Shown here: positions 931 through 22,114 of the stretch, in pieces
Numbering within the stretch: position 1 is the first letter of the stretch
Layout of the letters: every line of letters starts with the position of its first letter
NCBI GenBank assembly: GCA_037893245.1
Contig: JBAIAA010000536.1
Location: forward strand, 117,001 to 181,000
DNA length: 64,000 nt
DNA from: Crossaster papposus
Lineage: Eukaryota; Echinodermata; Asteroidea; Velatida; Solasteridae
Direction of reading: 5' to 3'
Translations under genes and position numbers: made by a program
Notes under the pieces: generated by a model
The model's database searches: none
Seen by the model: the letters and a program-made list of their open reading frames with translations, nothing else
What the model was told of the DNA's origin: nothing

Positions 931-1699
931 GGGTAGTAGATTGGCTACCTTGTGGTTTAGCGCTATTGTTCGTCAGTATCGATCGCTTTCCATTTTGCCG
1001 CATACATACCTACGTAGTTCATTAATCTTAGACACAAATCTTGGACCAAAATATACATTGTTTTTATCTGACGACCGAAACAATTTTGCAAATAATTGGG
1101 AGGTAACTTTCCACTAATAATACGAAAAATGTCGTATTCATATCGTGTATTGATCATAACAGTATTACATAGTTGGTTCTACATTCACTCGTACCTGTAT
1201 GCAACGAGAACTCAAACATGGCATAACACAAAGTCGTAAACAAAAATAAAGATCGTTCTGCCACTCTTCAGACTCTTTTTCCCCGGTAAATATGTTAGGT
1301 TTTCGTGCAGCATGGAAATGTTTCGGTTGCAACTTTAAAGCAGGTTGACAGTGAATTAATTACCATTCGTTTTAATGCATTCTACAATCGTTTTACAAGA
1401 CAGGATTTATGAGTGTACTTGACATTTCGTTAACATTGATTAACACTGTAGTTTAAAGTAGAGTTTGGTTTTGCACGACATCAAGTCAAAAGATATAATA
1501 TTGCAGCCCTGCAATTGACTTGAACAATGTGAGAGTTTATATGGAACATGGAACCAATGATTTTCAGGCAGATTTAAACTAACGACAAAAAATCGCATAT
1601 ACATTGATGACAGTATATCGACCAGATATGGCAAAACCGTAAAAATACGTATATGAACTCTGAAGTTAAACAGTAAAGGCAAATCGAATTTACAATTAC

Positions 1700-1708
1700 C
1701 TTTTTAAT
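1700..1708 (-). other. Putative 9-nt micro-exon, reads IKK
   Basis: On the minus strand the core lies between cgcaag and gtaattg. It is phase 0 and reads Ile-Lys-Lys. The usual acceptor position reads AT here (tttctttacat), so the AG 15 nt further on would serve. The donor GTAATT is the weakest of the set, so this copy may be inactive. Confidence 0.4.
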
Positions 1709-2128
1709 CTTGCGTGATGAGCCATGTAAAGAAACAAAACAGAAATGTTAGAAAAGCATTCATTGATAAAGTTTAATAGTGTGTATTAAGGGAATACAAA
1801 CCAAGCAAATGGCACAGGATTCAACACTTTGTCTTTATCTTACGTCTCAATGAATATATTATTACAAAGTTTCAACATTTTCTTCTGGATATTTCCTTCT
1901 TTCCTCTGGATTGTTTTTATTCCAATGACATGATTGTTTAAAGACGTTAAACCTGTAAAATCGCCCTCCGTGTAATGTCATTTCCTGACGGAGAGACATT
2001 CTTCTGAATTTTGAAATTATGTTAATGCCATAATTGGTGACAGTATATCGACCAGATATGGCAAAACCGTACAATATAGTTATTAACTTCAAAGTTAAAC
2101 AGTAAAGGTGAATCGAATGTACACTTAC

Positions 2129-2152
2129 CGAGGGCCCCGCGTCTAGTGGGCC
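2129..2152 (-). other. Putative 24-nt micro-exon, reads GPLDAGPS
   Basis: Minus strand: acceptor gtttctttacag, 24 nt, donor gtaagtgtac. It is strongly GC-rich (about 88%) inside AT-rich intron. Phase 0 is open and reads Gly-Pro-Leu-Asp-Ala-Gly-Pro-Ser. Both splice signals are good. Confidence 0.55.
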
Positions 2153-3513
2153 CTGTAAAGAAACAAAAGAGATGTTAAACAGTCATTGATAAAGTTTAAT
2201 TGTGTGTTTAAAGGAAAAACAATCAGGAAAATGGCACAGGATTCAACGCGTTAATAAACACCAAGAAAATGGCACAGGATTGAACACTTTGTCTCTATAT
2301 TACGTCTTTAACTGATACTTCATTAAAACAGATGAGGGAATAATTATAGACAGAAAACTCCTCATCGCCCAGAGACATTGTGTGTAAACAGCCGTATCGA
2401 GATAATCTCGGTCATTTTGACCCAGCGACATTCGTTGGATGTAGGTGGGAATTTCACTCAGTCCGTGGTTGCTTTGAACCTCAGTAAAAAATAATGCGAA
2501 ATCGCCCTTCAAGAAAACCTCAAATCTCTTCGTTTCCTCTGGAATTTTGTATAATTCCAATGACATAATTGTATAAAGAAGTTAAATCTGTGAAATCGCA
2601 GTCCAAGAAAAACGCAAAACTCCGCCGTGTAATGAAATCACGAAAACAGAAAGATTGAGTGAAGCAAGTTTTGAGGGAACAGTAATACTCAGAAGTGTTG
2701 TTGTTGTTGAAGAAAATTTGACTGGACTTGCTTTTTCTGGCTCGGGAGGTTAACTTCTTTCTTTTTTAAAGTTACACTTTCTTCCCTTCGCGTGCTGTTG
2801 GGTGATTTATAAGAGGGAGGGCCAGCCCATATTATCGTGAGTAAAAGTAACAAAAATCGGAAAAAGCACATTGGGTTCGTTTTTAGCCCATTCAATTTCA
2901 GTAGAAGGGAATGGAATGTGAGTCATACGTAGCTAAACCAAAAACAAACTATCAAAAAACAGGGGAAAAAACACTAGTTTTTAGTTACAAACAAGGCAGC
3001 TAGTCTGGTTTCCTGACAAAATCATTGATCGTGTATTGATCATAATAGTATTGCATAGTTGGTTCTATATTCACTCAAACATGGCATGGCAAAAAGTTGT
3101 GAAAAAAATTAAGATCGTTCTGCCACTCTTCAGACTTTTTTCCCGGTAAATATGATAGGTTTTTGTGCAGCATGGAAATGTTTCGGTTGAAACTTTAAAG
3201 CAGGTTGACAGTGAATTAATTACCATTCGTTTCTATGCATTCTTTAATCGTTTTACAAGACAGGAATCCATGAGTGTACTTGATATTTCGGAAACATTTA
3301 TTAACACTGTAGTTTGAAGTGGGGTTTGGTCTTGCACGACATTAAGTCAAAAGAAATAATACTGTAGCCCTGCAATTGACTACAACAATGTAAGAGTTTA
3401 TATGGAACCAATGATTTTCAGGCAGAGTTAAACTAACGAAGAAATATCGCATATACACTGATGACAGTAAATCGACCATATGAACAGTGAAGGTAAATCG
3501 AATGTACACTTAC

Positions 3514-3537
3514 CGGTGACTCTCTGCTACGTCCCCG
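3514..3537 (-). other. Putative 24-nt micro-exon, reads RGRSRESP
   Basis: Minus strand: acceptor ggttcatttacag, 24 nt, donor gtaagtgtac. Phase 0 is open and reads Arg-Gly-Arg-Ser-Arg-Glu-Ser-Pro. It has the same length as the copy at 2,129 but no similarity to it, although the flanks match. Confidence 0.55.
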
Positions 3538-3672
3538 CTGTAAATGAACCAAAGAGATGTTAACAAAACATTCATCGAACAAGTTTAATTGTGTGTATAA
3601 AGAGTATAAAAACCAAGAAAATGGCACAGGATTCAACACTTTGTCTTCGTATTATACGTCTCAATGAATATA

Positions 3673-3829
3673 TGTGACCCAGCGCGAGTAAATGAGACAC
3701 TTTGAGGCAAAAATGAAAATTGAGATTTTGATTTAATCATTTAAAGCTAAACAAGCTTTATATGATGAAATCAAAATCTCAATTTTCATTTTTGCCGCAA
3801 AGTGTCTCATTTACTCGTGCTGGGTCACA
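3673..3829. mobile_element. 157-bp palindromic MITE with TA target duplication
   Basis: The ends are tgtgacccagc and gctgggtcaca. Almost the whole element is an inverted repeat that folds on itself around aagctaaacaagctt. Sister units read aatgaatatattattacaaag at this place; here the element sits inside that phrase with TA on both sides, which gives an empty site within the same array. The TA duplication and hairpin form fit a Tc1/mariner-type non-autonomous element. It inserted after the unit was duplicated. Confidence 0.85.
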
Positions 3830-4950
3830 TATTATTACAAAGTTTCAACGTTTTCTTCTGGATGTTTCCTCCTTTCCTCTGGAATTCTTTATAATTCCAA
3901 TGACATAATTGTAAAAAGAAGCTGAATCTGTAAAATCGCCCTCCAAGAAAAACGCAAAACTCCGCCGTGTAATAAAATCACAAAAACATAAAGATTGAGT
4001 GAAGCAAGGCTTGGGGGGGGGGGGGGGGGACAGTAATCCTCAGAAGTGTTGTTGTTGCTGAAAAAAAAATTGACTGGACTTGCTTTTCTTTGTAAATATA
4101 TATTTCTGGCTCAGAAGGTTAACTTCTTTTCTTTTTAAAGTTACACTTTCTTCTTTTGGGCAATTGGGTGATTTATGAGAGGGAGGGCCAGCCCATAATA
4201 TTGCATGTAAAAGGAACAAAATATCGGGAAAAGCACATTGGGTTCGTTTTCAGCTCATTCAATTTCAATGGAAGGTAATGGAAAGTAAGTCATACGTAGC
4301 TGAACCTCTATGAGTAAAAACAAACTATCAAAGACAGGGAAAGAAACAATAGTTTTAATTAAAAACAAGGCAGTTAGTCGGATTTCCTAACAAAATAATT
4401 GATCATGTATTGATCATAACAGTATTACATAGTTGTTTCTATATTCACTCGTACCTGTATGCAACGAGAACTCAAACATGGCATGGCACAAAGTCGTAAA
4501 AAAAAATTAAAGATCGTTCTGCCACTCTTCAGACTCTTTTTCCCCGGTAAATATGTTAGGTTTTCGTGCAGCATGGAAATGTTTCGGTTGCAACTTTAAA
4601 GCAGGTTGACAGTGAAATAATTACCATTCGTTTTTATGCATTTTATAATCGTTTTACAAGACAGGATCCATGAGTGTACTTGACACTTCGGTAACATTTA
4701 TTAACACTGTAGTTTAAAGTGGAGTTTGATCTAGCACGACATCAAGTCAAAAGATATAATATTGCAGTCCTGCAATTGACTTGAACAATGTAAGAGTTTA
4801 TATGGAACCAATGATTTTCAGGCAGATTTAAACGAAGAAAAATCGCATATACACTGATGACAGTATATCGACCAGATATGGCAAAACCGTAAAGTATACT
4901 TATACGAACTCTGAAGTTAAACAGTAAAGGCGAATCGAATTTACACTTAC

Positions 4951-4959
4951 GTTTGCATC
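4951..4959 (-). other. Putative 9-nt micro-exon, reads DAN
   Basis: Minus strand: catcacgcaag, GATGCAAAC, gtaagtgtaa. The ancestral acceptor position reads AT, and the new AG lies 15 nt downstream after a conserved ggctcatcacgcaag. Phase 0 reads Asp-Ala-Asn. Confidence 0.5.
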
Positions 4960-6097
4960 CTTGCGTGATGAGCCATGTAAAGAAACAAAACAGAAATGTT
5001 AGAAAAGCATTCATTGATAAAGTGTAATATTGTGTATTAAGGGAATACAAACCAAGAAAATGGCACAATATTCAACACTTTGTCTTCATCTTGCGTCTCA
5101 ATGAATATTAGTATTACAAAGTTTCAACGTTTTCTTCTGGATATTTCCTTATTTCCTTTGGATTTTTCTTATTCCAATGACATAATTGTAAAAAAAATTG
5201 TACCTGTAAAATCGCCACCCCCCCAAAAAAAAAAGAAGATAAAAAACAAAAAAACAAACAAACCCGCAAAACCCCGTCGTGTAATGAAATCACGAAAACA
5301 GACAGATTGAGTGAAGCAAGGTTTGGGGAAACAATAATACTCAGAAGTGTTGTTGTTGTTAAAGAACATTTGACTGGACTTGCTTTTTCTTTGTAAATAT
5401 CTATTTCTGGCTCAGGAGGTTAACTTCTTTTCTTTTTAAAGTTGCACTTTCTTCTTTTCGCTTGCAATTGGGTAATTCATGAGAGGAAGGGCCAGCCCAT
5501 AATATCGTAAGTAAAAGGAACAAAATATCGGAAAAAGCACATTGGGTTCGTGTTCAGCCCATTCAATTTCAGTAGAAGGGAATAGAAAGTAAGTCATACG
5601 TAGCTGAACCTCTATGAGTAAAAATAGACTATCAAAGACAGAGAAAGAAACACTAGTTTTTAGTTACAAACAAGGCAGCTAGTCGGGTTTCCTGACAAAA
5701 TCACTGATCGTGTATTGATCATAATAGTATTACATAGTTGGTTCTATATTCAATAATATCTGTATGCAACAAGAACTCAAACATGGCATGGCGATCGATA
5801 CTGACGAACAATAGCGCTAAACCACAAGGTAGCCAATCTACAAGGCATCTTAAATCAGTGTATTTATAAAATAACAAAACTGATTTCATACTATTGTTGG
5901 TATCGCAAGGCAATCGTCTTAAAATGTTGTAAACATTTGGGGTAAACTTGGTTCTGCATGAACCCATGAAATCACACACATGCGCTTATGATAAAAAGTG
6001 AGAACGTGTGTTTTTTTTTTTGTAAACTGATAGTATGCTTACGTATACCCGCACATGCATATAAATCTCAACCTCTCTAATGACCGCATAAACTTAC

Positions 6098-6118
6098 CAT
6101 AGTAGTATCCATTAGCAT
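6098..6118 (-). other. Putative 21-nt micro-exon, reads MLMDTTM
   Basis: This copy has the second flank type: acceptor tttcatttccttgcag and donor gtaagtttatg. The 21 nt read Met-Leu-Met-Asp-Thr-Thr-Met in phase 0. The flanks match those of the copy at 54,145 while the cores differ. Confidence 0.55.
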
Positions 6119-7077
6119 CTGCAAGGAAATGAAAGAGATGTGAACATTACAATAGTAAGAAAACATCTATAAGAATATACATTGTTTTGATCTGACGATA
6201 AAAATAAACTTTAAAAAATGGCGGAAAACTTGTAACCAATAGAACGAAAGTTGGTTCTATATTCACTTATACCTGTATGCGAAATGAACTTATCTCTTTG
6301 TGGCTGGGGAGGTTAACTTATTTCCTTTAACAGTTACACTTTTTTCCTTTCGCTTGCAATTGGGTGATTTATTAATGCTTCGGTTACAACTTAAAAGCAG
6401 GTTGACAGTGAAATAATTACCATTCGTTTTAATTCATTCTATAATCGTTCTACAAGACAGGATCCAGGGGTGCACTTGGCATCTTAAAAAGGCACCCAGA
6501 GGCTCCTAACATGACGATTTTATATCGAAGCAACTATGTCATTTCCTGACAGGGAAAATTTCTTCTGAATTTTGAAATTATGTAAATGCCATAATTGATG
6601 ACAATATATCGACCAGATGGGGCGAAACCGCGAAATAAACGTGAAACAAGGGGCGTGAAATGGGTGGACGAGATAGCCTCGGAAATTTGTGTTGAAAAAA
6701 ATGTGACTGAACTTGCTGAAATATCTGGCTATAGGTAAATTACTTTTTTTTTTTTAAGTCATGTTTTCTTCCTTTCGATTGCATTGTGTGTGATTTATGA
6801 ATTAAAAATATGTGTCTATTGGCTGGAGATGAAATGCAATTCTTCTATATATTATTATGGTATCTACAAGTATACTTGGAAGGTTAAAACAACAAGTAGT
6901 AACCTATACATAACGAAAGTTTTGCACCGAGTCATATCAAGATAATCTCGATCATTTTGACCCAGCGACATTTGTTGGATGTTGGTAGCATTTTAACTCA
7001 GTCTGTGGTTGCTTTGAACCTCAGTAAAATAATCAATAAGAAGGAAATGATCGATAAATAACAACGCAGACGAAATA

Positions 7078-7330
7078 TTATGTAGGTCCACTGTATTACA
7101 ATGTATATTGAGGAGATCACAATTAAATAATACGTATAGCCTACGTAAATATCCGCGTAATACATAAGATTATCCGATTTGATAAGCCCGATATTCTTCG
7201 ACTGTTCTCACCCTTCCGAACAGGATTACGTTCCCAAACGGTACAGTGAGTTGAGGGGATTTGCACTGTACTGAGACGACTTGCATACACTAATCGCCTT
7301 GAGGACATTTGACCAAAGTTTGGACGTCTG
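7078..7330 (+). mobile_element. PIF/Harbinger transposase fragment, left copy
   Basis: This is the paralogue of the better copy at 55,967. It shares tgtattacaatgtatattg, gatttgataagcccgat and actgagacgacttgcataca. The protein reads as the N-terminal part of a Harbinger-type DDE transposase. Relative to the right copy it has lost several bases in the cttccgaacagg region, so its frame is broken. It lies inside a larger block shared by the two arrays (about 6,240-8,480 against 55,110-57,440). Confidence 0.55.
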
Positions 7331-7936
7331 GTTCTAATTTGGCATGAATTTCAGACTTTATAAAATCCGCACTCATTTTGTATAGTATTGCGCATGACTA
7401 AGTGGAGATAATTAGAAGAGTGACCGGTCACGTGAGAGGGTTTTACCTGGTATTCATATGGAACTCGCAAAATGAACTCTCACGAGTGATAAACAAAGTG
7501 ATTTAACTCCTTTTTTGATGACCATAATGAAACAGGTTGTCTAATCTGAACTAACCCTGGCCAAACCATGACAAATTGACTCTTTATAACAAATCCGACT
7601 AAGATTAATGAACTACGTAGGTATGTATGCGACAAAATGGAAAGCGATCGATACTGACGAACAATAGCGCTAAACCACAAGGTAGCCAATCTATACAAGG
7701 CATCATAAATCAGTATATTTATAAAATAACAAAACTGATTTCATACTATTGTTGGTATCGCAAGGCAATCGTCTTAAAATGTTGTTAACATTTGGGGTAA
7801 ACTTGGTTTTGAACACATGAAATCACACACATGCGCTTAAGATGAAAAGTGAGAACGTGTATTTTTGCTGGTAAACGGATAGTATGCTTACGTATACACG
7901 CACATGTATATCTTAACCTCTCTAATGACACCATAA

Positions 7937-7990
7937 ACTTACAAACCCACTGCTTGATGACATTTTGTTTGGTTCGGTTTACATTTTGTT
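7937..7990 (-). other. Micro-exon relic: donor kept, acceptor lost
   Basis: A donor of the second flank type (gtaagtttatgg on the minus strand) survives, but the pyrimidine tract and acceptor are replaced by an unrelated segment containing atgtcatcaagcagtggg. The same relic recurs near 56,872, 59,191 and 62,979 with almost no change. It serves as a control: the site next to the donor does not vary in copies that cannot be spliced. Confidence 0.45.
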
Positions 7991-8613
7991 TTCGGTAAAA
8001 TGAAGTAAGACTTAATTTAAAGTGGAGTTTCGTCAAAGGAAATCTTGCATTTCAGCGAACTAACGTTTCCTGGCAGAGAGAATTGCTTCCACAATTTACA
8101 ACTACACCCTAAAAACAGATTGGTTGGAAATAACTAATTGATTGGTGGATATGTGTCCTACCAATATATTGGTTAATTTTAACCTAAATATTTGTTTTTT
8201 TGACCAATATTTTTGTTAAAATGACCAATATCCTTGCGGGGGTTGCAACGTGGCACAAAGTCGTTTAAAACAATAAAGATCGTTTTGCCACTCCTCAAAC
8301 ACTTTTTCCGGTAAATATGTTTCGGTTGACAGTGAAGTAATTACCATTCGTTTCTATGCATTCTATAATCGTTTTACAAGACAGGGTCCATGAGTGTATT
8401 TGACATTTCGGTAAAATTGATTAACACTGTAGTTTAAAGTGAAGTTTGGTCTTGCACGACATTAAGTCAATGATTTTCAGGCAGATTTAAACTAACGATT
8501 AAAAATCGCATATACACTGATGATAGTATATCGACCAGATATGGCAAAACCGTGAAATCTACTTATATGAACTCTGAAGTTAAACAATAAAGGCGAATCG
8601 AATTTACACTTAC

Positions 8614-8622
8614 GCTTAAATG
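8614..8622 (-). other. Putative 9-nt micro-exon, reads HLS
   Basis: Minus strand: catcacgcaag, CATTTAAGC, gtaagtgtaa. Phase 0 reads His-Leu-Ser. The leader ggctcatcacgcaag is identical to that at 4,951 while the nine bases differ. Confidence 0.5.
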
Positions 8623-9306
8623 CTTGCGTGATGAGCCATGTAAAGAAACAAAACAGAAATGTTAGAAAAGCATTCATTGATAAAGTTTAATAGTGTGCAG
8701 GGAATACGAACCAAGAATATGGCACAGGATTCAACACTTTGTCTTCATCTTACGTCTCAATGAATAGCATAATACAAAGTTTCAACGTTTTCTTCTAGAT
8801 ATTTCCTCCTTTCCTCTGGATTTTTCTTATTCCAATGACATAATTGTATAAAGAAGTTGAACCTGTAAAATCGCCCCCCCCCAAAAAAAAAAAAATAAAA
8901 AAAAAAAAAATAAAAAAAAAAATAAAAAACCGCAAAACTCCGTCGTGTAATGAAATCACGAAAACAGACAGAAGTCGTTCTGCCACTCTTCAGACTCTTT
9001 TACCGGTATATATGTTAGGTTTTTGTGCAGCATGGAAATGTTTCGGTTGAAACTTTAAAGCAGGTTGACAGTGAAATAATTACAATTCGTTTGTATGCAT
9101 TCTATAATCGTTTTTTACAAGACCGGATCGATGAGTGTACTTGACACTTCTGTAACATTTATTAACACTGTAGTTTAAAGTTTGAAGTTTAAACTAACGA
9201 AGACAAATCGCACACTGATGACAGTATACCGACCAGATATGGAAAACCGCGAAATATACTTGAACTTCGAAGTTAAACAGTGAAGGCGAATCGAATGTAC
9301 ACTTAC

Positions 9307-9315
9307 CACAGCGTC
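9307..9315 (-). other. Putative 9-nt micro-exon, reads DAV
   Basis: Minus strand: catgtcttattcggctag, GACGCTGTG, gtaagtgtac. Phase 0 reads Asp-Ala-Val. If the exon started at the ancestral acceptor position, tag would be an in-frame stop; used as the acceptor it is harmless. This supports the short form. Confidence 0.5.
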
Positions 9316-11095
9316 CTAGCCGAATAAGACATGTAAAGAAACAAAAGAGATGTTAGAAAAACATTAATCTATACAGTTTAATTGTGTGTAGGCCTATAAA
9401 GGGAATACAAACCAAGAAAATGGCACATTATTCAACACTTTGTCTTTATCTTGAGTCTCAATAAATATATTATTACAAAGTTTCAACGTTTTCTTCTGGA
9501 TATTTTCTCCTTTCCTCTTCACTTTTGTTATAATTCCAATGACAGAATTGTATAAAGACGTTGAATCTGTAAAATCGCCCTAAAAAAACCCGCAAACTCC
9601 GCCGTGTAATGAAATCACGAAAACAGAAAGATTGAGTGAAGCAAGGCTTGGAGGAACAATAATACTCAGAAGTTTTGTTGTTGTTAAAGGAAATTTGACT
9701 GGACTTGCTTTTCTTTGTAAATATCTATTTCTGGCTCAGGAGGTTAACTTATTTTCTTTTTAAAGTTACATTTTCTTTCTTTCGCTTGCAATTGGGTGAT
9801 TTATGAAAGCTTGGATTACAACTTTAAAGCAGGTTGACAGTAAACAAATTAAGAAAACTCCTAATCGCCAGGGACATTGTGTGTAATCAGTCATATCAAA
9901 ATAATCTCGATCATTTTGACCGAGCGACATTCGTTATATTTTGGTAGCATTTTCACTAAGTCTGTGGTTATTTTGAATCTCAGTATATCAACTACATTGA
10001 TACACTCAAAACAAAATGTTATGCTGCGAATAAAAAACAAAATAAAAGAATAGTGAGAAAACGTATTTGACAAGAGTGGACAAATTAATACTTAATAATA
10101 ATAATACGACTGAACGAACACAACAAAACATGTGTGGCAAATTGCAATCTACGACACTTAAATTATCTCTATTCGAGTATTGATCATAATTAGATGGTGA
10201 ATTATATTTACTCTTAGTGTACGCAAAAGGACCTCAACATACAGGGGCGAACTGGGACACAAATTCGGCCCGGACGCTCATACATACGCACACACGCTCA
10301 CCACAGGGTTCCTGTAGTCATAGAGGGAGGGCCAGCCCATTATTATCGTGAGTAAAACGAACAAAATATCGGAAAAAGCACATTGAGTTCGTTTTCAGCC
10401 CATTCAATTTCAATGGAAGGTAATGGAAAGTAAGTCATACGTAGCTAAACCTCTATGAGTAAAAACAGACTATCAAGAACAGGGGGGGGGGACACTAGTT
10501 TTTAGTTACTAACAAGGCAGCTAGTCCGGTTTCCGGACAAAATAATTGATCATGTATTGATCATAACAATAACAGTATTACATAGTTAGTTCTATATTCA
10601 ATAATATCTGCATGCAACACGAACTTCAACATGGCATAACACAAAGTGGTTAAAAAAATTAAAGATCGTTCTGCCACTCTTTAGACTCTTTTCCCGGTAA
10701 ATATGTTAGGCTTATGTGCAGCATGGAAATGTTTCGGTTGCAACTTTAAAGCAGGTTGACAGTGAATTAATTACCATTCGTTTCTATGCACTCTTTAATC
10801 GTTTTACAAGACAGGATCCATGAGTGTACTTGATATTCCGGGAACATTTATAACACTGTAGTTTAAAGTGGGGTTTGGTCTTGCACGAAATTAAGTCAAA
10901 ATAAATAATATTGCGATTGACTTGAACAATGTAAGAGTTTATATGGAACCAATGATTTTCAGGCAGATTTAAAATAACGAAGAAAAATCGCATATACACT
11001 GATGACAGTATATCGACCAGATATGGCAAAACCGTGAAATATACTTATATGAACTCTGAAGTTAAACAGTAAAGGCGAATCGAATGTACACTTAC

Positions 11096-11104
11096 CCCCA
11101 AAAA
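11096..11104 (-). other. Putative 9-nt micro-exon, reads FLG
   Basis: Minus strand: catcacgcaag, TTTTTGGGG, gtaagtgtac. Phase 0 reads Phe-Leu-Gly. The leader is conserved as at 4,951 and 8,614. Confidence 0.5.
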
Positions 11105-11819
11105 CTTGCGTGATGAGCCATGTAAAGAAACAAAACAGAAATGTTAGAAAAGCATTCATTGATAAAGTTTAATTGTGTGTATACAGGGAATAAAACCCTA
11201 GAAAATGGCACAGGATTCAACACTTTGTCTTCATCTTACGTGTCAAGGGATATATTATTACAAAGTATCAACATTTTCTTCTGGATATTTTCTTCTTTCC
11301 TTCGGATTAATTTTGTTTAATTCCAATTACATAATTGTAAAAAGAAGTTAAACCTGTAATATCGCCCTCCCCCCCCCCCCCCCCAAAAAAAAAAAAAAAA
11401 AACACGCAAAACTCCGCCGTGTAATGAAATCACGAAAACATAAAGATTGAGTGAAGCAAGGCTTGGGGGAACAGTAATACTCAGAAGTTTTGTTGTTGTT
11501 GAAGAAAAATTTGACTGGACTTGATTTTCCTTGTAAATATCTTTGTCTGGCTCGGGAGGTTAACTTATTTCCTTTTTAAAGTTACAACTTTTTTTCTTAC
11601 GCTTGTCTTCACCTTACGTCTGAAGAAATATATTATTACAAAGTTTTAACGTTTTCTTCTGGATATTTCCTCCTTTCCTCTGGAATTTGTTTTAATTCCG
11701 ATGACATAATTGTATAAAGACGTTGAACCTGTAAAATCGCTCTCCAAGAAAAACGCAAAACTCCGCCGTGTAATAAAATCACGAAAACATAAAGATTGAG
11801 TGAAGCAAGGCTTGGGGGA

Positions 11820-14312
11820 AAAGTAATACTCTGAAGTTTTGTTGCTGTTGAAGGAAATTTGACTGGACTTGCTTTTCTTTGTAAATAATAATACAGTCTC
11901 AATTGTGTGTACGTACACGCATCCAAGTGGGTAAATGCCGTCAATAGGGGACGGGGCATTGTCCGACCGTCTTCCCTCTTTTGTTTGTACTCTAACGTTT
12001 TCGGATGATCGCCATAGGATTTGCACACGAGTCTGAATCGGGGACCTTTGCGGAATAGGGGACCCCATTGTTCCCTTTGTCATACGTCCCCTATTTCAAT
12101 CAAAAACAAACGCAACTGTACGACCATGCACGCTGACGGGGGTGTTTGAATAAAATCGGGACCTCAAGTTGCTGCTTTGCAGTCATGATGCCCTTTTCTG
12201 TCTCAAGAATATTGCAAGAAATTATCGGTCATCTACGTCTCATTTCCTTCCCCAAAATCAGTACAACTGCTTGTATTTTAATCCTAGACAATCCATCTTC
12301 CATGTTCATACCTTTTCCTGCCTATCCACATATACGAAAGCTCCTTTTTTAATATTAGTAGGCCTATTTGCTTCTTTTTCTTCAAGGTAGCCCCGAACCA
12401 ACCTTGAAAAATTTCGAGTAAATACTGCAAATCTGAAGCATTTACTCATTTGTAATCATACCAAATGGAGCAAATACTAACATTCTAGCAAATGACTAAA
12501 AGCAAAAAGTAAATACTTTTAGTCTTTAGCAAATACTTTCCAGTAAAACCTTTTGCTTCATTTTTATTCATACATATGCTAGTAAAAGCTTGCAAATTGG
12601 TAGTAAAAGCAAATGCTAGTTTTTATTCATACGACCGATTGTGTGTAAATAGTCATATCAAGATAATCTCGATTATTTTGACCAAGCGACATTCGTTGGA
12701 TGTTGGTAGCATTTTCAATCAGTCTGTGGTTGCTTTGAACCTCAGTAAAATAATGTAAAATAATACTCAGAAGTTGTGTTGTTGAAGAAAATTTGACTGG
12801 ACTTGCTTTTCTTACTTCGAAGTAAATGCTTTTACTTTTTGCTTGTACTTCATAGCATTTGCTAGTTTTTATTCATACGACCCATTGGGTTGGTTTTCAG
12901 CCTATTACATTTCGATAGAAGGTAATGGAAAGTAAGTCATACGTAGCTGAACCTCTATGACTAAAAACAGGAGAAAAACACACTAGTTTTTAGTTACAAA
13001 CAAGGCAGCTAATCTAGTTTCCTGACAAAATCATTGATCGTGTATTGATCATAATAGTATTACATAGTTGGTTCTATATATAATAATATCTGCATGCAAC
13101 AAGAACTCAAACATGGCATAGCACAAAGTCGTTAAAAAAAAATAAAGATCGTTCTGCCACTCTTCAGACTCTTTTCCCGGTAAATATGTTAGGTTTATGT
13201 GCAGCATGGAAATGTTTCGGTTGCAACTTTAAAGCAGGTTGACAGTGAATTAATTACCATTCGTTTCTATGCACTCTTTAATCGTTTTACAAGACAGGGT
13301 CCATGAGTGTACTTGACATTTCGGGAACATTTATTAACACTGTAGTTTGAAGTGAAGTTTGATCTAGCACGACATTAAGTCAAAAGAAATAATATTGCGG
13401 TCCTGCAATTGACTTGAACAATGTAAGAGTTTATATGGAACCAATGATTTTCAGGCAGATTTAAACTAACGAAGAAAAATCGCACACTGATGACAGTATA
13501 CGACCAGATATGGAAAACCGCGAAATATACTTGAACTTCGAAGTTAAACAGTGAAGGCGAATCGAATGTACACTTACCACAACGTTCTTGCCGAATAAGA
13601 CATGTAAAGAAACAAAAGAGATGTTAGAAAAACATTAATTTATACAGTTTAATTGTGTGTAGGCCTATAAAGGGAATACAAACCAAGAAAATGGCACATT
13701 ATTCAACACTTTGTCTTTATCTTGAGTCTCAATAAATATATACTATTACAAAGTTTCAACATTTTCTTCTGGATATTTCCTCTTTTTCTCTAGATTTTTT
13801 CTTATTCCAATGACATAATTTTATAAAGAAGTTAAACCTGTGAAATCGCAATCCAAGAAAAACGCAAAACTCCGCCGTGTAATGAAATCACGAAAACGGA
13901 AAGATTGAGTGAAGGAAGTCTTGAGGGAACAGTAATACTCAGAAGTTTTGTTGTTGTTAAAGAAAATTTGACTGGACTTGCTTTTCTTAGTAAATATCTT
14001 TTTCTGGCTTGGGAGGTTAACTTCGTTCCTTTTTAAAGTTACACTTCCTTTCGCTTGCAATTGGATGAGTTATGAATGCTTCGGTTGCAACTTTAAAGTA
14101 GGTTGACATCAGTTAAATAATTACCATTCGTTTTTATGCATTCTATAATCGTTTTACAGGACAGGATCCATGAGTGTACTGGACATTTCGGTAACATTGA
14201 TTAACAGTGTGGTTTAAAGTGGAAATTAGTCTTGCACGACATTAAGTCAAAAGAAATAATATTGCTGCCCTGCAATTGACTTGAACAATGTAAGAGTTTA
14301 TATGGAACCAAT
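11820..14312. repeat. Tandem duplication, copy 1
   Basis: This stretch and 14,845-17,340 are nearly identical, with an offset of 3,034 bp on the left part and 3,027 bp on the right part. The difference comes from small indels such as an extra ggcct before tatttgcttc. Both include the insertion at about 11,890-12,130 (caataggggacggggcattg), an AT-rich agtaaatact region and a micro-exon. Few differences are visible by eye, so the duplication is recent compared with the divergence among other units. Confidence 0.85.
13578..13586 (-). other. Putative 9-nt micro-exon, reads NVV (copy 1)
   Basis: Minus strand: catgtcttattcggcaag, AACGTTGTG, gtaagtgtac. Phase 0 reads Asn-Val-Val. It is identical to the copy at 16,605 because both lie in the recent tandem duplication. 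Confidence 0.5.
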
Positions 14313-14452
14313 TATTTTCAGACAGAGTTAAACTAACGATGAAAAATCGCATATACACCGATTACAATATCGACAAGATATGGCAAAACCGTGAAATATA
14401 CTTATATGAACTCTGAAGTTAAACAGTAAAGGCGAATCGAATTTACACTTAC

Positions 14453-14470
14453 CTGTACACCACTGCATGA
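14453..14470 (-). other. Putative 18-nt micro-exon, reads SCSGVQ
   Basis: Minus strand: catggctcaccag, 18 nt, donor gtaagtgtaa. Phase 0 reads Ser-Cys-Ser-Gly-Val-Gln. A second AG eight bases further on would give a 10-nt exon that breaks the multiple-of-three pattern, so the 18-nt form is preferred. Confidence 0.45.
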
Positions 14471-14844
14471 CTGGTGAGCCATGTAAAGAAACAAAACAGA
14501 AATGTTAGAAAAGTATTTATTGATAAAGTTTAATAGTGTGTATTAGGCCTAAGGGAAAACCCAGAAAATGGCACCGGATTCAAAACTTTGTCTTCATCTT
14601 ACGTCTCAATGAATATTAGTATTACAAAGTTTCAACGTTTTCTTCTGGATATTTCCTTCTTTCCTCTGGATTTTTCTTATTCCAATGACATAATTGTAAA
14701 AAGAAGTTGAACCTGTAAAATAGCCTCCCCCCCCAAAAAAAAAGAAAACAAAAAAGATAAAAAACAAAAAACAAGCAAACCCGCAAAACTCCGCCGTGTA
14801 ATAAAATCACGAAAACAGAAAGATTGAGTGAAGCAAGGCTTGGG

Positions 14845-17340
14845 GGAACAGTAATACTCAGAAGTTTTGTTGCTGTTGAAGGAAATTTGACTGGACTTGC
14901 TTTTCTTTGTAAATAATAATACAGTCTCAATTGTGTGTACGTACACACACACGCACCCAAGAAGGTAAATGCCGTCAATAGGGGACGGGGCATTGTCTGA
15001 CCGTCTTCCCTCTTTTGTTTGTACTCTAACGTTTTCGGATGATCGCCATAGGATTTGCACACGAGTCTGAATCGGAGACCTTTGCGGAATAGGGGACCCC
15101 ATTGTTCCCTTTGTCATACGTCCCCTATTTCAATCAAAAACAAACGCAACTGTACGACCATGCACGCTGACGGGGGTGTTTGAATAAAATCGGGACCTCA
15201 AGTTGCTGCTTTGCAGTCATGATGCCCTTTTCTGTCTCAAGAATATTGCAAGAAATTATTGGTCATCTACGTCTCATTTCCTTCCCCAAAATCAGTACAA
15301 CTGCTTGTATTTTAATCCTAGACACTCCATCTTCCATGTTCATACCTTTTCCTGCCTATCCACATATACGAAAGCTCCTTTTTTAATATTAGTATTTGCT
15401 TCTTTTTCTTCAAGGTAGCCCCGAACCAATCTTGACAAATTTCGAGTAAATACTGCAAATCTGAAGCATTTACTCATTTGTATTCATACCAAATGGAGCA
15501 AATACTAACATTCTAGCAAATGACTAAAAGCAAAAAGTAAATACTTTTAGTCTTTAGCGAATACTTTCCAGTAAAACCTTTTGCTTCATTTTTATTCATA
15601 CATATGCTAGTAAAAGCTTGCAAATTGGTAGTAAAAGCAAATGCTAGTTTTTATTCATACGACCCATTGTGTGTAAATAGTCATATCAAGATAATCTCGA
15701 TCATTTTGACCAAGCGACATTCGTTGGATGTTGGTAGCATTTTCAATCAGTCTGTGGTTGCTTTGAACCGCAGTAAAATAATGTAAAATAATACTCAGAA
15801 GTTGTGTTGTTGAAGAAAATTTGACTGGACTTGCTTTTCTTACTTCGAAGTAAATGCTTTTACTTTTTGCTTGTACTTCATAGCATTTGCTAGATTTTAT
15901 TCATACGACCCATTGAGTTGGTTTTCAGCCTATTACATTTCGATAGAAGGTAATGGAAAGTAAGTCATACGTAGCTGAACCTCTATGACTAAAAACAGGA
16001 GAAAAACACACTAGTTTTTAGTTACAAACAAGGCAGCTAATCTAGTTTCCTGACAAAATCATTGATCGTGTATTGATCATAATAGTATTACATAGTTGGT
16101 TCTATATATAATAATATCTGCATGCAACAAGAACTCAAACATGGCATGGCACAAAGTCGTTAAAAAAAATAAAGATCGTTCTGCCACTCTTCAGACTCTT
16201 TTCCCGGTAAATATGTTAGGTTTATGTGCAGCATGGAAATGTTTCGGTTGCAACTTTAAAGCAGGTTGACAGTGAAATAATTACCATTCGTTTTTATGCA
16301 TTCTATAATCGTTTTACAAGACAGGATCCATGAGTGTACTTGACATTTCGGGAACATTTATTAACACTGTAGTTTGAAGTGAAGTTTGATCTAGCACGAC
16401 ATTAAGTCAAAAGAAATAATATTGCGGTCCTGCAATTGACTTGAACAATGTAAGAGTTTATATGGAACCAATGATTTTCAGGCAGATTTAAACTAACGAA
16501 GAAAAATCGCACACTGATGACAGTATACGACCAGATATGGAAAACCGCGAAATATACTTGAACTTCGAAGTTAAACAGTGAAGGCGAATCGAATGTACAC
16601 TTACCACAACGTTCTTGCCGAATAAGACATGTAAAGAAACAAAAGAGATGTTAGAAAAACATTAATTTATACAGTTTAATTGTGTGTAGGCCTATAAAGG
16701 GAATACAAACCAAGAAAATGGCACATTATTCAACACTTTGTCTTTATCTTGAGTCTCAATAAATATATACTATTACAAAGTTTCAACATTTTCTTCTGGA
16801 TATTTCCTCTTTTTCTCTAGATTTTTTCTTATTCCAATGACATAATTTTATAAAGAAGTTAAACCTGTGAAATCGCAATCCAAGAAAAACGCAAAACTCC
16901 GCCGTGTAATGAAATCACGAAAACGGAAAGATTGAGTGAAGGAAGTCTTGAGGGAACAGTAATACTCAGAAGTTTTGTTGTTGTTAAAGAAAATTTGACT
17001 GGACTTGCTTTTCTTAGTAAATATCTTTTTCTGGCTTGGGAGGTTAACTTCGTTCCTTTTTAAAGTTACACTTCCTTTCGCTTGCAATTGGATGAGTTAT
17101 GAATGCTTCGGTTGCAACTTTAAAGTAGGTTGACATCAGTTAAATAATTACCATTCGTTTTTATGCATTCTATAATCGTTTTACAGGACAGGATCCATGA
17201 GTGTACTGGACATTTCGGTAACATTGATTAACAGTGTGGTTTAAAGTGGAAATTAGTCTTGCACGACATTAAGTCAAAAGAAATAATATTGCTGCCCTGC
17301 AATTGACTTGAACAATGTAAGAGTTTATATGGAACCAATG
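14845..17340. repeat. Tandem duplication, copy 2
   Basis: Sister of 11,820-14,312. After 17,340 the sequence returns to an older unit with its own micro-exon at 17,473, while copy 1 runs into the unit holding the 14,453 micro-exon. This places the right breakpoint between the ttatatggaacc landmark and the micro-exon. Confidence 0.85.
16605..16613 (-). other. Putative 9-nt micro-exon, reads NVV (copy 2)
   Basis: Identical core and flanks to 13,578, by recent tandem duplication. It is the only pair of micro-exons in the window with the same sequence. Confidence 0.5.
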
Positions 17341-17472
17341 ATTTTCGGGCAGATTTAAACTAACGAAGAAGAATCGCATATACACTGATGACAGTATATC
17401 TACCAGATATGGAAAATAAACTTATATGAACTCTGAAGTTAAACAGTAAAAGCGAATCGAATGTACACTTAC

Positions 17473-17481
17473 CGCCACAAA
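17473..17481 (-). other. Putative 9-nt micro-exon, reads FVA
   Basis: Minus strand: catcacgcaag, TTTGTGGCG, gtaagtgtac. Phase 0 reads Phe-Val-Ala. It is the last copy before the array ends near 18,130. Confidence 0.5.
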
Positions 17482-18169
17482 CTTGCGTGATGAGCCATGT
17501 AAAGAAACAAAACAGAAATGTTAGAAAAACATTCATTGATAAAGTTTAATAGTGTGTATTAAGGGAATACGAACCAAGAAAATGGCACAGGATTCAACAC
17601 TTTGTCTTCATCTTACGTCTCAATGAATATATTATTACAAAGTTTCAACGTTTTCTTCTGGATATTTCCTCCTTTCCTCTGGAATTTGTTTTAATTCCAA
17701 TGACATAAATGTATAAAGACGTTGAACCTGTAAAATCGTCCTCCAAGGAAAACGCAAAACCCTGCCGTGTAATAAAATCACGAAAACAGAAAGATTGAGT
17801 GAAGCAAGGTTTGGGGAAACAGTAATACTCAGTTTTGTTATGTAAGTTTTGTTGTTGAAGGAAATTTGACTGGAATTTCTTTTCTTTGTGAAGATTTATT
17901 TCTGGCTCGGGAGGTTTACTTCTTTCCTTCTTAAAGTTGCACTTTCTTCCTTTAGCTTGCAATGGGGTAATTTATTAATGCTTCGGTGTAATTTATTAAT
18001 GCTTCGGTGTAATTTGTAAATTACAAAAATGTGTCTATTAGCTTGGAGATAAATTGTAACTCTTCTATAGTATTATGGTATCTACATGAATACTTCTTGG
18101 TAGGTTAAAACAACAAGTAGTAACTTAACTTAATTGTACATGACAACATGTTGCACTGAAGATGAAACC

Positions 18170-18590
18170 TTTTAAGAGGGCTAATTGAGACCTATATACA
18201 GTTGCGTCCTCAAAAATACAAAAATAATGTTGTTTTCAGATGGAAATGACGAGTCCACTTCTGTGCTATTTTTCGACACAGAAGATTTGGGGCCTACGAA
18301 AGATTTGGAGCCTATGACAGATTTGGAGGCCTGCAAAATATTGGAGGGCATGTATGGTGGCCCTGGAGGGACAACGCAGATTGTGAATATTGACCTCAAT
18401 ATTTACGACAAATTTCACTTTTTCCAAAGTCGCGAATTTTGACGTCAATATTTGCGACAAAATTCACGACTTGCCCCCAAAGTCGCGAAACTTGCCCCCA
18501 AAATCACGACTTTGTTATCCTTTTTTTGTTTTTCGGAAGACCTCCATAAGATTTGTACAGGATTTGGAATCGTGGACCTTTTGTCAATAA
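18170..18590. repeat. Interspersed repeat truncating the NACHT exon
   Basis: The stretch at 18,525-18,590 (ttttcggaagacctccataa) resembles 12,000-12,050 and 15,035-15,085 (ttttcggatgatcgccatag), inside the array insertions. Within it, gcgacaaaattcacgac and cccaaagtcgcgaa recur two or three times. It starts where NACHT similarity stops, so it probably inserted into the gene. The open frames across it on both strands match no family I recognise. Confidence 0.45.
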
Positions 18591-18619
18591 TTGTAATAGT
18601 TTTAGCGAGATTTCGTGTA

Positions 18620-19304
18620 AATAGTGATAACATTTGTTTGGTGCGGATAAGTTGGCTGTATTTTCTATCGAGCGCTTTGAAGATAAAACCGAATGAGGCC
18701 GCATCGAGTGTTTTGGTCCTAATGTTATCGAAACCATTCAAAAGAATCAAGACCTCATTAGGGTTGGTAATGATGAATTTATCAAGTTCATCATTTGCTA
18801 TTCCCGAATCTTTGCCGAGAAGATGATCGAATGAGGAATCAACGAGATTAGATTCCTGCAACTTGGCACACATCTTTAAAAGAAAGACGAGTTTGAATCT
18901 GTTCAGGATTTCGTTTACTTCATCGGCCCAATCGTATACAATCTTGCCAAAAATGGTTGACTTACCGACCCCTCCCATACCCCACTAAACCAGGCGTTTG
19001 ATAAGTTCCCCGGTTCTTGATCTTAATATTTTGTCATACTCTGTTGAGTTTACATTTTCTCTTTTATGGCCAGTGACAACTGCTACCCCTTCCCGTGTTT
19101 CTAACTTTACTTTAGTGTGTACGCCAGCTATGTGCTTCTGGTCATTATCAACGTCAGGCAACAACTGTACGTAGCTGCCTGTTGTTTTATAAACTCTCTT
19201 CAAAATATCCCTGGTCTTGTTACTTACATCTTCAGGACAAGCAGCCGCCAACGCTGGCTCTTGGTCTGGTCTCTGACCAAGCTGAGGTATTGGTGCAGGA
19301 ATAC
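18620..19304 (-). pseudogene. NACHT exon with in-frame stop
   Basis: The acceptor tttggtttttaatag precedes GTATTCCTGC; in phase 1 this reads G-IPAPIPQLGQRPDQEPALA. About 106 codons of linker (including NKTRDILKRVYKTTGSYVQL and a charged stretch) run to LIKRLV, then TAG at 18,985-18,987, then WGMGGVGKST. Reading TTG for TAG would restore a Leu usual before the P-loop, so a single base change is the simplest cause. Downstream are the segment RFKLVFLLKMCAKL and NEVLILLNGFDNI; similarity then fades near SFGFIFKALDRKY. The Met at 19,350 is intronic and is not a start. Confidence 0.65.
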
Positions 19305-20150
19305 CTATTAAAAACCAAAACAAGAAACAAGTTTTGCTTCGATAATACATTGTTTCTGAAATGGATTGTGACTATAGTCTAGAATAAAATTGTATGTAAA
19401 AGAAATGACTCTGTGATCTATGGTGCTACACAAATAAGTTTGGTGCATAATATATACATGTTTTGGCAACTATAGCGCTGTTAGATGCAAACTTGTCAAG
19501 TGTTTTCTTAAGGTACATTCCAATTTTTAAAACCAACAAAAAGAAATCCAGACAAAAAGCTGGTAACTGCAGGTGTACAAACAAAATGACTGGACCTCAT
19601 TCTCCCAAGACTTACTGAGACGATAGAAAATTATCATCTTGTGGTTGTACATCATAAATAAGGCAAATATGGTTCCTCAAATTTTGATTAAAGATAAGTT
19701 GATGTTCGTCGCAGTGTACAAACTCACGCACCACCACGCACATTTATCATGATTATTTATTATTTTCCCCCACAATAGTGTCGTTAATTCATGTAATTCG
19801 TGCATGAATCCATTAATTAATGTACGCCTTAACCCTTTTTAGAAGTGGTACACATAGAGGGCGCTATCTGGCGTGGGTTCATAAAGGAACAAACTCTAAG
19901 ACGTCACCGCTATAAATACCGCATATTGTGTCCAGCATATCCAACTGGCTTGTAATATTTGCACCAACGAAAATGAATGACTCTTAATTAGCTTGCAAAC
20001 TGACAAAAACAATTTTTGTGTTTATGTTTATGTGGTTTACCACATACTCCTCCCAAATACATTTGAATTGATATAAAGCTACTTTCATTTTGACAAACAA
20101 GATTATTATCAGGTAGTTGTAATTATAATCAAGAAAGGTAATGTTGTTGC

Positions 20151-20201
20151 TACCACTGACTGTGTCAATGTTCTCGATGGTTCCAGTTTGTTGTGTGGAA
20201 T
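20151..20201 (-). pseudogene. Partial copy of the 108-nt linker exon
   Basis: After ttttag the sequence matches the first half of the duplicated exon (STQQTGTIENIDTVSGSNN), then diverges with no donor. It is a third, decayed copy on the 3' side of the two intact ones. Confidence 0.6.
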
Positions 20202-20405
20202 CTAAAATCAGAAGCTTGAATTTAGAAATAGCCTTAAATAAAGTAGCTAATCACATCCCCCAAATTTCTATTTTTGTAAAAACAAAGTATAGACTGAGTA
20301 GAAAAATAAAACAACACATCAAAGTTCACCTTGTCAGAAATAGAATAAGTGTACCTTACTGCAACCTTGAATGCTTACACCCGGTCTTATAATACCCCAG
20401 GTACA

Positions 20406-20425
20406 CCCCCCCCCCCCCCCCCCCC
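20406..20425. repeat. Poly-C tract
   Basis: An uninterrupted run of about 20 C, followed by a further interrupted C stretch. A shorter run stands at the matching place of the duplicated intron near 21,207. Confidence 0.9.
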
Positions 20426-20574
20426 ACCCCCCATTCCATGTACAACTGCCAAACCTTTCCATTTTAAAGGTGAAACGAACTAAACAAATAAGCTTCTTTT
20501 CGAACTTGGCTCCCAAACTATTATATTTGATATACAATTTGTTTAATGTTATTATCAAACATGATTGTATTTAC

Positions 20575-20682
20575 CTGGTCTCTCCATTGGGAAGTGAACT
20601 GCACTTGGACCAGCAATGGTAGGGTTCTGGCTACCACTGACTGTATCAATGTCCTCGCTGGTTCCAGTTTGTTGTGGGGAAT
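20575..20682 (-). CDS. Duplicated 108-nt phase-1 exon, copy nearest NACHT
   Basis: It is bounded by ag at 20,683-20,684 and gtaaat after 20,575. It starts and ends in phase 1 and reads SPQQTGTSEDIDTVSGSQNP then TIAGPSAVHFPMERP. It is a low-complexity Ser/Thr/Pro/Gly linker with no known domain. It matches the exon at 21,347 in all but a few codons. Surrounding intron is duplicated too (caccttggatgcacccggtc near 21,170 and its counterpart near 20,360). Confidence 0.7.
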
Positions 20683-21346
20683 CTAAAATCAGAAGCAAGA
20701 ATTAAAATATCCTTAAATAAAATAGCTAATCACATCCCCCAAATTTCTAATTTTGTAGAAACAAAGTATAGGACGAGTAAACAAATAAATAATTACATCA
20801 AAGTCAATTTTCTCAGAAATTGAATAAGACTTGTGCCCAACATTTCCAGCTATTCTGAATAGATCATTCAAATTTTATTTTTGTTGAGCTAAACATTGTG
20901 ATTGTATAAGCACCTGTTTCTTGTTTCCTTCAATCATTACCATTTGAAATCCTGTTCTGATAGCCGAGAGAAAGTTAACGTGTGAATTGGTCTAATGAGA
21001 AACAACAGAATTGGGCCATTGTTTTTCAATAGAAACATAAATGGTGTGTACATTTTTCGTTTTGTACTCGGCCTATACTTTGTTTCTGCAATGTAGACAT
21101 TTGGGGGATGTGAGTAGCAAGGTAGGGGTACCTTAAGAGATTGGTTAATTAAAGTACCTTGCTGCCACCTTGGATGCACCCGGTCTTAAAATACTCCAGG
21201 GACACCCCCCCCCCCCCCTTCCATGTACAAGTGCCAAACCTTTTGAAACGAATTAAAAAATAAGCTTCTTTTCTAACTTGTCTCCCAGACTATTACATTT
21301 GATATACAATGTCTTTAATGTTATTGACAAACATGATTGTATTTAC

Positions 21347-21454
21347 CTGGTCCCTCCATTGGGAAGTGAACTGCACTTGGACCAGCGATGGTAGGGTTCT
21401 GGCTACCACTGACTGTATCAGTGTTCTCGGTGGTTCCCGTTTGTTGTGGGGAAT
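21347..21454 (-). CDS. Duplicated 108-nt phase-1 exon, upstream copy
   Basis: It runs from ag at 21,455-21,456 to gtaaat after 21,347. It reads SPQQTGTTENTDTVSGSQNP then TIAGPSAVHFPMEGP, phase 1 in and out. It differs from the 20,575 copy at about four residues. Because the exon is symmetric, one or both copies can be included without changing frame. Confidence 0.7.
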
Positions 21455-21680
21455 CTAAAATCAAAATATCCTTAAATAAAGTACATGTACCTAATCACAT
21501 CCCCCAAATGTAAATTTTGTAGGAACAAATAAAGTATAGGCTGAGTTAAAAAAAAATTAAAAATTACATCAAAGTCAATTTTGCTCAGAAATATAATAAG
21601 TGTGCCCAAAATGTTCGGCTATTCGGAATATATCATTTAAATGTTATTGTTGTGGAGCTCAACATTGCGATTGTATTTAC

Positions 21681-21721
21681 CTGGCCCCTCTATTGGGAAC
21701 TGGGAAGTAAACTGTACTTTT
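21681..21721 (-). pseudogene. Partial copy of the 108-nt linker exon (3' end)
   Basis: The donor side (gtaaatacaatc) and the last part, including VYFPVPNRGA-like codons, match the duplicated exon. The 5' part and acceptor are gone at about 21,721, where unrelated sequence begins. A broken fourth copy. Confidence 0.55.
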
Positions 21722-22071
21722 CAATCGCGACTACACACAAAACACTCAACTACACGCAAAACTATAATACAAGTACAAACTAGAAAACAGAAGGATACAG
21801 AACCAGGACAACAACTAGAAATAGCAAATGGAATGCAACAATGAAATGACAAATGCACAAACAGAACATTCTATCTCTCAAGGGGGAATTATCGAATGGA
21901 AAGAGAATTGCACAAGTAAAGGGGGGGTGCATGTCGTGGGTATCTTTCAATTCTATCAAACAAAATAACAACCGAGGCCTCGGTCTGCGGCTGTCAATTG
22001 GGGCCTGTGACTGTTTTACCTCTGATATAGAATTTGGACCAGTTTCTGATTTTACATCACTACTTACTGAC

Positions 22072-22114
22072 CTGTTGCAGCAGAGGGGGTGGGCTGAGCC
22101 TCCTGTTCGTCCAT
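22072..22114 (-). CDS. Start exon of the NACHT gene, MDEQEAQPTPSAAT
   Basis: ATG at 22,112-22,114, then 14 codons reading MDEQEAQPTPSAAT, then G at the donor gtcagtaagt. The phase-1 end fits the phase-1 start of every following exon, which is why this ATG is chosen. It is short and acidic with no signal peptide. The long frame that reads on past the donor is intronic. Confidence 0.6.

Follow-up and report, generated by a model that had tools for sequence, protein, structure and literature searches.

Genes built largely of very short exons have been described in schistosomes: in these micro-exon genes (MEGs), exons of 6-36 bp make up about 80% of the coding region, and the generation of protein variation by alternative splicing is suggested in the accessible part of the source (PMC5825161). 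In conotoxin genes, introns are conserved within a superfamily (e.g. over 84% identity) while the mature peptides differ in cysteine scaffold, and positive selection has been tested, according to the excerpted text of PMC3862624. As regards FIIND-type proteins, the available text of two reports states that NLRP1B is cut by a bacterial protease and the N-terminus of CARD8 by a viral protease (PMC7857732, PMC10359095). Here we describe a window of 64,000 nt (64 kb) from the sea star Crossaster papposus (assembly GCA_037893245.1, contig JBAIAA010000536.1, positions 117,001 to 181,000, forward strand), whose minus strand carries two arrays of short, variable cores set between conserved splice-like flanks, the right one upstream of exons for ZU5 and Death domains. 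These arrays are probably tandem intron/micro-exon/intron cassettes that build the N-terminal tail of a ZU5-UPA-like-Death protein under diversifying selection. A search of the literature outside subscription journals returned, in the text available, no account of hypervariable micro-exons in ZU5/Death genes.

Micro-exon cores and their flanks

Re-extraction of the cores between splice-like AG and GT on the minus strand of the window rendered 18 micro-exon cores of 9-30 nt, 12 in a left array (1700-17481) and six in a right array (51930-61475), as follows (window coordinates, minus strand, phase 0 translation):

17473-17481 (-), 9-nt core, FVA, AT-type cassette (from re-extraction and flank alignment)
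16605-16613 (-), 9-nt core, NVV, within a recent ~99% duplicate tract shared with 13578-13586
14453-14470 (-), 18-nt core, SCSGVQ, acceptor ambiguous as read from the bases, alternative 10 nt
13578-13586 (-), 9-nt core, NVV, identical copy of 16605-16613
11096-11104 (-), 9-nt core, FLG
9307-9315 (-), 9-nt core, DAV
8614-8622 (-), 9-nt core, HLS
6098-6118 (-), 21-nt core, MLMDTTM, second cassette family (tttccttgcag/gtaagtttatg)
4951-4959 (-), 9-nt core, DAN
3514-3537 (-), 24-nt core, RGRSRESP, AG acceptor intact
2129-2152 (-), 24-nt core, GPLDAGPS, AG acceptor intact
1700-1708 (-), 9-nt core, IKK, donor gtaatt
61455-61475 (-), 21-nt core, PLCLSLP
61212-61232 (-), 21-nt core, FLPIRPI, different acceptor flank
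59933-59941 (-), 9-nt core, REN, a second AG would give 7 nt
57615-57635 (-), 21-nt core, PRIVSES
54145-54162 (-), 18-nt core, GYSSAK, second cassette family
51930-51959 (-), 30-nt micro-exon, FSGSLRPSTE, opens the frame-continuous ZU5/Death model, donor equal to the family donor minus 4 nt

The length is a multiple of three in all 18 cores (9 nt in nine, 18 nt in two, 21 nt in four, 24 nt in two and 30 nt in one), and no stop is found among their 93 codons in phase 0, compared with 5/91 in phase 1 and 4/91 in phase 2. The initial annotation, which had counted 17/17 multiples of three and 0/83 stops in phase 0, is borne out on both points, the 30-nt core extending the counts to 18/18 and 0/93; related copies inherit their length, however, so that 17/17 does not stand for 17 independent events. 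Its statement that the cores are unlike except for one recently duplicated pair also holds, 17 of the 18 being distinct and 16605-16613 being identical to 13578-13586. The flanks that it took to be the same at twelve left sites are so at 11 of them, 6098-6118 having another donor (gtaagtttatg) and another acceptor, and the 18-nt length that it gave for 14453-14470 does not stand as a unique call, as a later AG would yield 10 nt.

When up to 3 mismatches are allowed, the donor motif GTAAGTGTACATTCGATTCG has 14 matches in the window, each of them on the minus strand, and none in 100 shuffles; the 20-base motif had no exact match among the viral contigs or the prokaryote genome contigs searched. 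Alignment rows are labelled here by the lower coordinate of the core minus 1 (row 17472 is the core 17473-17481). A search of the 64 kb with acceptor and donor profiles, built without rows 61211, 54144, 6097 and 51929, rendered a main family of 14 full-length acceptors and 15 donors, in which all 14 acceptors have their donor and no full-length copy is unpaired, the fifteenth donor (61211) pairing with an unrelated, weak acceptor flank (core 61212-61232). GT is kept in 15/15 of these donors. Flank fragments also scored, one from an acceptor (2253-2281, E 0.006) and two from donors, devoid of a GT end (6612-6642, E 0.06, and 55508-55538, E 0.03), as well as weak second-family matches, and the profile search found no further copy of frame-breaking length within the window. 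The second cassette family, tttccttgcag/gtaagtttatg, comprises the cores 6098-6118 and 54145-54162 and an acceptor at 58269-58289 that has no core. No Rfam match at gathering scores was found. Two minus-strand tracts of about 2.3 kb, 15060-17350 and 12020-14325, both carrying the NVV core, are ~99% identical, with identity falling sharply at both ends; to judge from this pattern, the tract is a recent duplication or conversion.

The claim that variation is limited to the AG-GT interval was confirmed by alignment of the five cassettes that share one acceptor (cores at 17473, 11096, 8614, 4951 and 1700; the five-copy group). In this alignment the core is variable in 8 of 9 columns and the flanks in 30 of 226 (Fisher P 2e-6), the minimum number of changes being 13 and 32, respectively; the 26 nt immediately preceding the core are invariant. 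Pairwise, the 9-nt cores of the group share 1 to 7 of 9 bases, while identity is 94-99% over the last 120 upstream columns and 87-94% over the 400-nt downstream flank. For the pair of rows 11095/4950, with 1/9 core bases shared, none of 503 flank windows is equally low, and for 4950/1699, with 4/9 shared, 37 of 532 are. Rows 54144, 6097 and 51929 were left out of the flank alignments and hence of the codon-position counts derived from them.

Origin of the 9-nt cores and codon positions

The exons of the four main-family cassettes with an intact AG (rows 61454, 57614, 3513 and 2128) are 21-24 nt long. The other ten main-family acceptors read TTTACAT in the place of the AG; nine of them have their next AG 15 nt further on (16 in row 59932), and 15 and 9 add up to 24. 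Moreover, the third-position skeleton of the 24-mers is recognisable in the 15 nt left outside the core (CAACG and CACCG, vs CAACG in row 2128 and GATCA in row 3513), and in the five-copy group these 15 nt do not vary at all, next to 9 nt that are randomised. It would seem that the 9-nt cores are what is left of 24-nt exons after loss of the AG, and the variation largely tracks what would be spliced, if the downstream AG is used as the sequence suggests. The loss of the AG would then amount to an internal natural experiment, in which 15 nt largely ceased varying once they were outside the exon.

The codon positions of the cores were compared over the first five codons of seven rows, consisting of the two intact 24-mers, three 21-mers and two of the 15-nt segments as fossils. 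Third positions match in 64/105 comparisons (row-shuffle P 2e-5, post hoc like all P values for this pattern), and positions 1 and 2, with 27/105 and 26/105, are at chance; leaving out each of the seven rows in turn gave P values always ≤0.0004 (5,000 shuffles each). Rows 54144, 6097 and 14452 and the single 9-nt cores are excluded from this test, the AT-type copies entering as the two fossil rows. Row 51929 enters only in an eight-row version, at an offset taken from the earlier slide of the 30-mer described below, with third positions matching in 88/140, a value reached by 0 of 20,000 shuffles. In the three main-family 21-mers, matches are 3/21, 7/21 and 16/21 at positions 1, 2 and 3 (P 0.94, 0.58 and 0.0001 in a within-row shuffle that keeps composition), and the 30-mer slid along them at one common offset matches third positions in 18/21 (P 0.0017), positions 1 and 2 being not significant. 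Shuffling of columns gave for third positions P 0.008 with all length classes pooled (13577, which has the identical core, and 14452 dropped) and P 0.0016 within clades (13577, 59932 and 14452 dropped), and of the 32 differences in five sister pairs 5 are at position 3, compared with 15 at position 1 and 12 at position 2 (binomial P 0.022).

This codon pattern fits diversifying selection on amino acids, with silent sites roughly neutral; the silent-site skeleton of one ancestral exon would still be legible through saturated amino-acid change. Of the two causes proposed in the initial annotation, a base-blind local mutational mechanism is the poorer fit, since third positions have been scrambled less than the others, and diversifying selection is to be preferred.

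The ZU5-UPA-like-Death gene and its surroundings

The 30-nt core 51930-51959 and nine further exons form one open frame of 571 amino acids (aa), in a ten-exon model whose borders were placed by hand at AG and GT. The nine exons are:

51007-51061 (-), linker exon, ETSFALTAEKSVNLQSSP
49648-50300 (-), ZU5 exon, holding KHFTGAALVG at the autocleavage position of related proteins
46123-46254 (-), UPA-like exon 1
45233-45412 (-), UPA-like exon 2
44708-44761 (-), 54-nt exon with CxxC (LCNICQK)
42763-42795 (-), 33-nt exon with CxxC (ICPSCK)
42162-42438 (-), exon with no Pfam match
41946-41989 (-), 44-nt exon
41500-41755 (-), Death-domain exon

Because the 30-nt core is in frame with the ZU5/Death exons, phase 0 of this terminal micro-exon is fixed independently of the other cores. 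The phase 0 reading of the micro-exons proposed initially is supported by this continuity and by third-position conservation, their splicing being predicted. Pfam assigns ZU5 (5.5e-17) and Death (7.4e-11) to the model and a sub-threshold UPA (E 0.01, 16 bits vs a cut-off of 27), and the closest solved structure is UNC5B (3g5b, E 3e-14), over ZU5 and part of UPA. The Death exon either reads on into the next bases or is followed by a further exon. The model holds two CxxC pairs, and its small exons of 33, 44 and 54 nt lie within 41946-44761 (-), two of them encoding these pairs. A tblastn search of the window for further ZU5/Death exons found nothing below E 0.7 outside the exons of the model itself. 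After the last core the model has 561 aa, vs 40 aa in the six right-array cores; the array continues past the edge of the window, so that this micro-exon share is a lower bound.

In the alignment with UNC5B, the Phe of KHF-TGAALVG stands on the Leu seven residues after Cys-670, i.e. Leu-677 in the numbering of PMC3210808. According to the accessible text of that paper, this is the position at which CARD8 is cleaved (SF/S) and at which PIDD and Nup98 have their HFS motif, and the nucleophile of such cleavage may be Ser, Thr or Cys. An AlphaFold model of the ZU5 exon alone had a mean predicted local distance difference test (pLDDT) score of 33.5 and was not used for a fold search.

Four copies are found of a candidate start exon, ATGTCATCAAGCAGTGGGTTT (MSSSSGF), preceded by an in-frame TAA:

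7943-7963 (-), MSSSSGF, donor gtaagt, left array
62983-63003 (-), MSSSSGF, right array
59197-59217 (-), MSSSSGF, donor gtaagg, right array
56877-56897 (-), MSSSSGF, donor gtaagg, right array

The copies are identical in 4/4, and therefore variability is not a general property of exons in this region. Transcripts from different copies would, if these are first exons, hold different sets of cores. No hydrophobic leader or secretion signal was seen by eye in MSSSSGF, the candidate start exon being all that was inspected. The tail obtained by joining MSSSSGF, the right-array cores and the linker has 66 aa, with 16 Ser and 7 Pro, a content that suggests disorder. At the left end of the left array, a 94-nt piece of the start-exon cassette lies inverted on the plus strand (937-1030, 99% identity), which suggests a rearrangement there. 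A 42-nt tandem repeat of 3.4 copies (63322-63464) is located in a block seemingly inserted into a start-exon cassette of the right array, and a short palindromic insert (GTGACCCAGC...GCTGGGTCAC), resembling by eye a miniature inverted-repeat transposable element, in one cassette intron (about 3670-3830, minus strand).

The ZU5, Death and NACHT coding stretches of the window lie between GT-AG borders. The NACHT (2.4e-10) belongs to an NLR-like gene with repeated 108-nt phase-1 exons that adjoins the left array (18445-22114, minus strand); it has an in-frame TAG right before GMGGVGKST and looks like a pseudogene, because its NACHT frame stops near 18445. Retroelement-like frames with weak Pfam matches only, presumably of the BEL/Pao type, are found at 26014-28779 (-), and a long inverted repeat, seen by eye, at about 22380-23400, with a ATATTACGCGGCAGGGATTAACG stretch on both arms.

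Explanations for the variation and comparison with known systems

In the reading that we regard as probable, i.e. that of tail-encoding cassettes under diversifying selection, each cassette would be a symmetric phase-0 coding exon, whose gain, loss or skipping leaves the frame intact. The probable ancestor of the main-family cores would be a single exon, about seven to ten codons long. In the cores, strong selection would keep swapping the amino acids, with silent positions and introns drifting at an ordinary rate or being homogenised. Loss of the AG (ACAG to ACAT) would shift the splice site 15 nt downstream and leave a 9-nt exon, and the 15 nt turned intronic would largely have stopped varying. 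That the start exon is repeated suggests the existence of several promoters, or first exons, that serve the same downstream exons. As to function, the tail, which is probably unstructured, would most likely act as a hypervariable bait or recognition element of a cytosolic death-domain sensor that evolves against pathogens. The smallest exons of the gene would be its fastest-evolving part. Should the tail be a bait for pathogens, the way in which intracellular sensors of invertebrates are diversified in the absence of recombination would become a directly testable question.

Several observations weigh against this reading. Splicing is deduced from the sequence, and the tests of the third-position pattern came after it had been spotted by eye. 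Of the three antisense frames of the cores, one is likewise stop-free (0/91), and for that reason a stop-free phase by itself was rejected as proof of coding. The codon contrast weakens when the two fossil rows are removed from the five-codon test (26/50, P 0.004) and is slight in the 24-mer pair (2/8, 3/8 and 4/8 at positions 1, 2 and 3). Eight distinct 9-mers, when pooled, give 28/84, 22/84 and 30/84, perhaps by saturation between clades, and the third positions of the five-copy group, identical in 18/30, are still less alike than the flanks. The wider 300-nt upstream flank of that group is 83-91% identical, lower than near the core, and the pair 17472/11095, with 7/9 core bases shared, is no outlier, as 105 of 515 flank windows are equally low. 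In the other AT-type clade, one of the four copies has a substitution in the excluded stretch (9306) and another an extra base (59932), and in the tenth copy (row 14452) this stretch is rearranged and the splice choice is ambiguous. Finally, tblastn found no ZU5 or Death exon for the left array within the window.

Some of these observations would be expected if the stretch between AG and GT were hypermutated or replaced by a codon-blind local mechanism such as copying, conversion or editing. The low sharing of core bases between the 94-99% identical upstream flanks of the five-copy group, third positions there that are more diverged than the flanks, and the absence of a clear codon contrast in the pooled 9-mers all agree with it; the recent duplicate pair with identical cores is too young to bear on the question. 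We nevertheless hold this explanation to be highly improbable, because third positions agree where the first two do not exceed chance, and because the start exons, as well as the 15 nt adjoining the 9-nt cores, are invariant, which indicates that there is no general hotspot. It is also quite unlikely that the cassettes are decaying, i.e. that they are multiplied debris of introns, in which relic micro-exons look exonic but are spliced rarely, if at all. The left array devoid of a ZU5/Death exon, the second-family copy that lost its core (58269-58289), the loss of the canonical AG in 10/14 main-family acceptors and the in-frame stop in the adjoining NLR-like gene could be taken as signs of decay, but relaxed cores should diverge about as the flanks do and not about ten times more, their third positions would not be spared, and GT is retained throughout the main-family donors while 0/18 core lengths break the frame.

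Other possibilities are forms of, or compatible with, the preferred reading of a diversified tail. It can be the case, as a tentative possibility, that one or a few cores are chosen per transcript, via promoters or splicing, as mutually exclusive or first exons. Dscam and protocadherin are systems of this exon-choice type. The identical start exon in four copies, three of them in the right array, and the symmetric cassettes, of equal length in nine of 18, are in line with such a choice, yet the cores fit cumulative splicing as well. Somewhat more doubtful is a germline combinatorial diversity, in which micro-exon arrays and repeated start exons would give many alternative N-terminal baits to one ZU5-UPA-Death effector and the loss or gain of splice sites would move codons in and out of the selected peptide. 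A narrower form of the preferred reading, which we consider unlikely, is that the tail mimics the sites of pathogen proteases, whose cut would destabilise the autocleaved ZU5 fragment and free UPA-Death, as in NLRP1/CARD8. The order of tail, ZU5, UPA-like and death fold is that of the CARD8/NLRP1/PIDD module, the Phe of KHF-T falls on UNC5B Leu-677, where the available text has SF/S for CARD8 and HF/S for PIDD (PMC3210808), and cleavage of NLRP1B and of the CARD8 N-terminus is stated in the accessible parts of the reports cited above (PMC7857732, PMC10359095). On the other hand, Thr stands in place of Ser, the UPA match is below the cut-off (16 vs 27 bits), and the structure model of the ZU5 exon (mean pLDDT 33.5) is unusable.

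The analogy with schistosome MEGs, raised in the initial annotation, applies to exon size and symmetry, all 18 cores being short symmetric exons of 9-30 nt. It does not extend to the composition of the gene, since most of the modelled coding region consists of ordinary exons (561 vs 40 aa in the part seen, compared with about 80% micro-exons in MEGs): here the micro-exons are confined to a tail, which is followed by a long ZU5/Death part that is constant, and they are paralogous copies with conserved introns. The MSSSSGF start has no obvious secretion signal by eye. UNC5B and UNC5-like ZU5-UPA-Death proteins are close in that 3g5b is the best solved relative, but the model has no ectodomain, a micro-exon array as its tail, and Phe for Leu-677. 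The FIIND proteins CARD8, NLRP1 and PIDD1 share with it the domain order, with a ZU5 domain (5.5e-17) and a C-terminal death fold (Death 7.4e-11), and an HF-hydroxyl residue at the presumed autocleavage position, where HFT stands at the place aligned, through UNC5B, with SF/S or HF/S; it differs from them in the Thr instead of Ser, in the weak UPA match, in the tail of repeated micro-exons, and in the two CxxC pairs and extra exon before Death. As in venom genes of the conotoxin type, introns are conserved and exons fast, and divergence is higher in exons than in introns and higher at protein-changing than at silent positions, with the pooled 9-mers devoid of codon contrast. Whereas conotoxins are encoded by separate genes of few exons, the exons of 9-30 nt described here form an array that precedes a single signalling gene.

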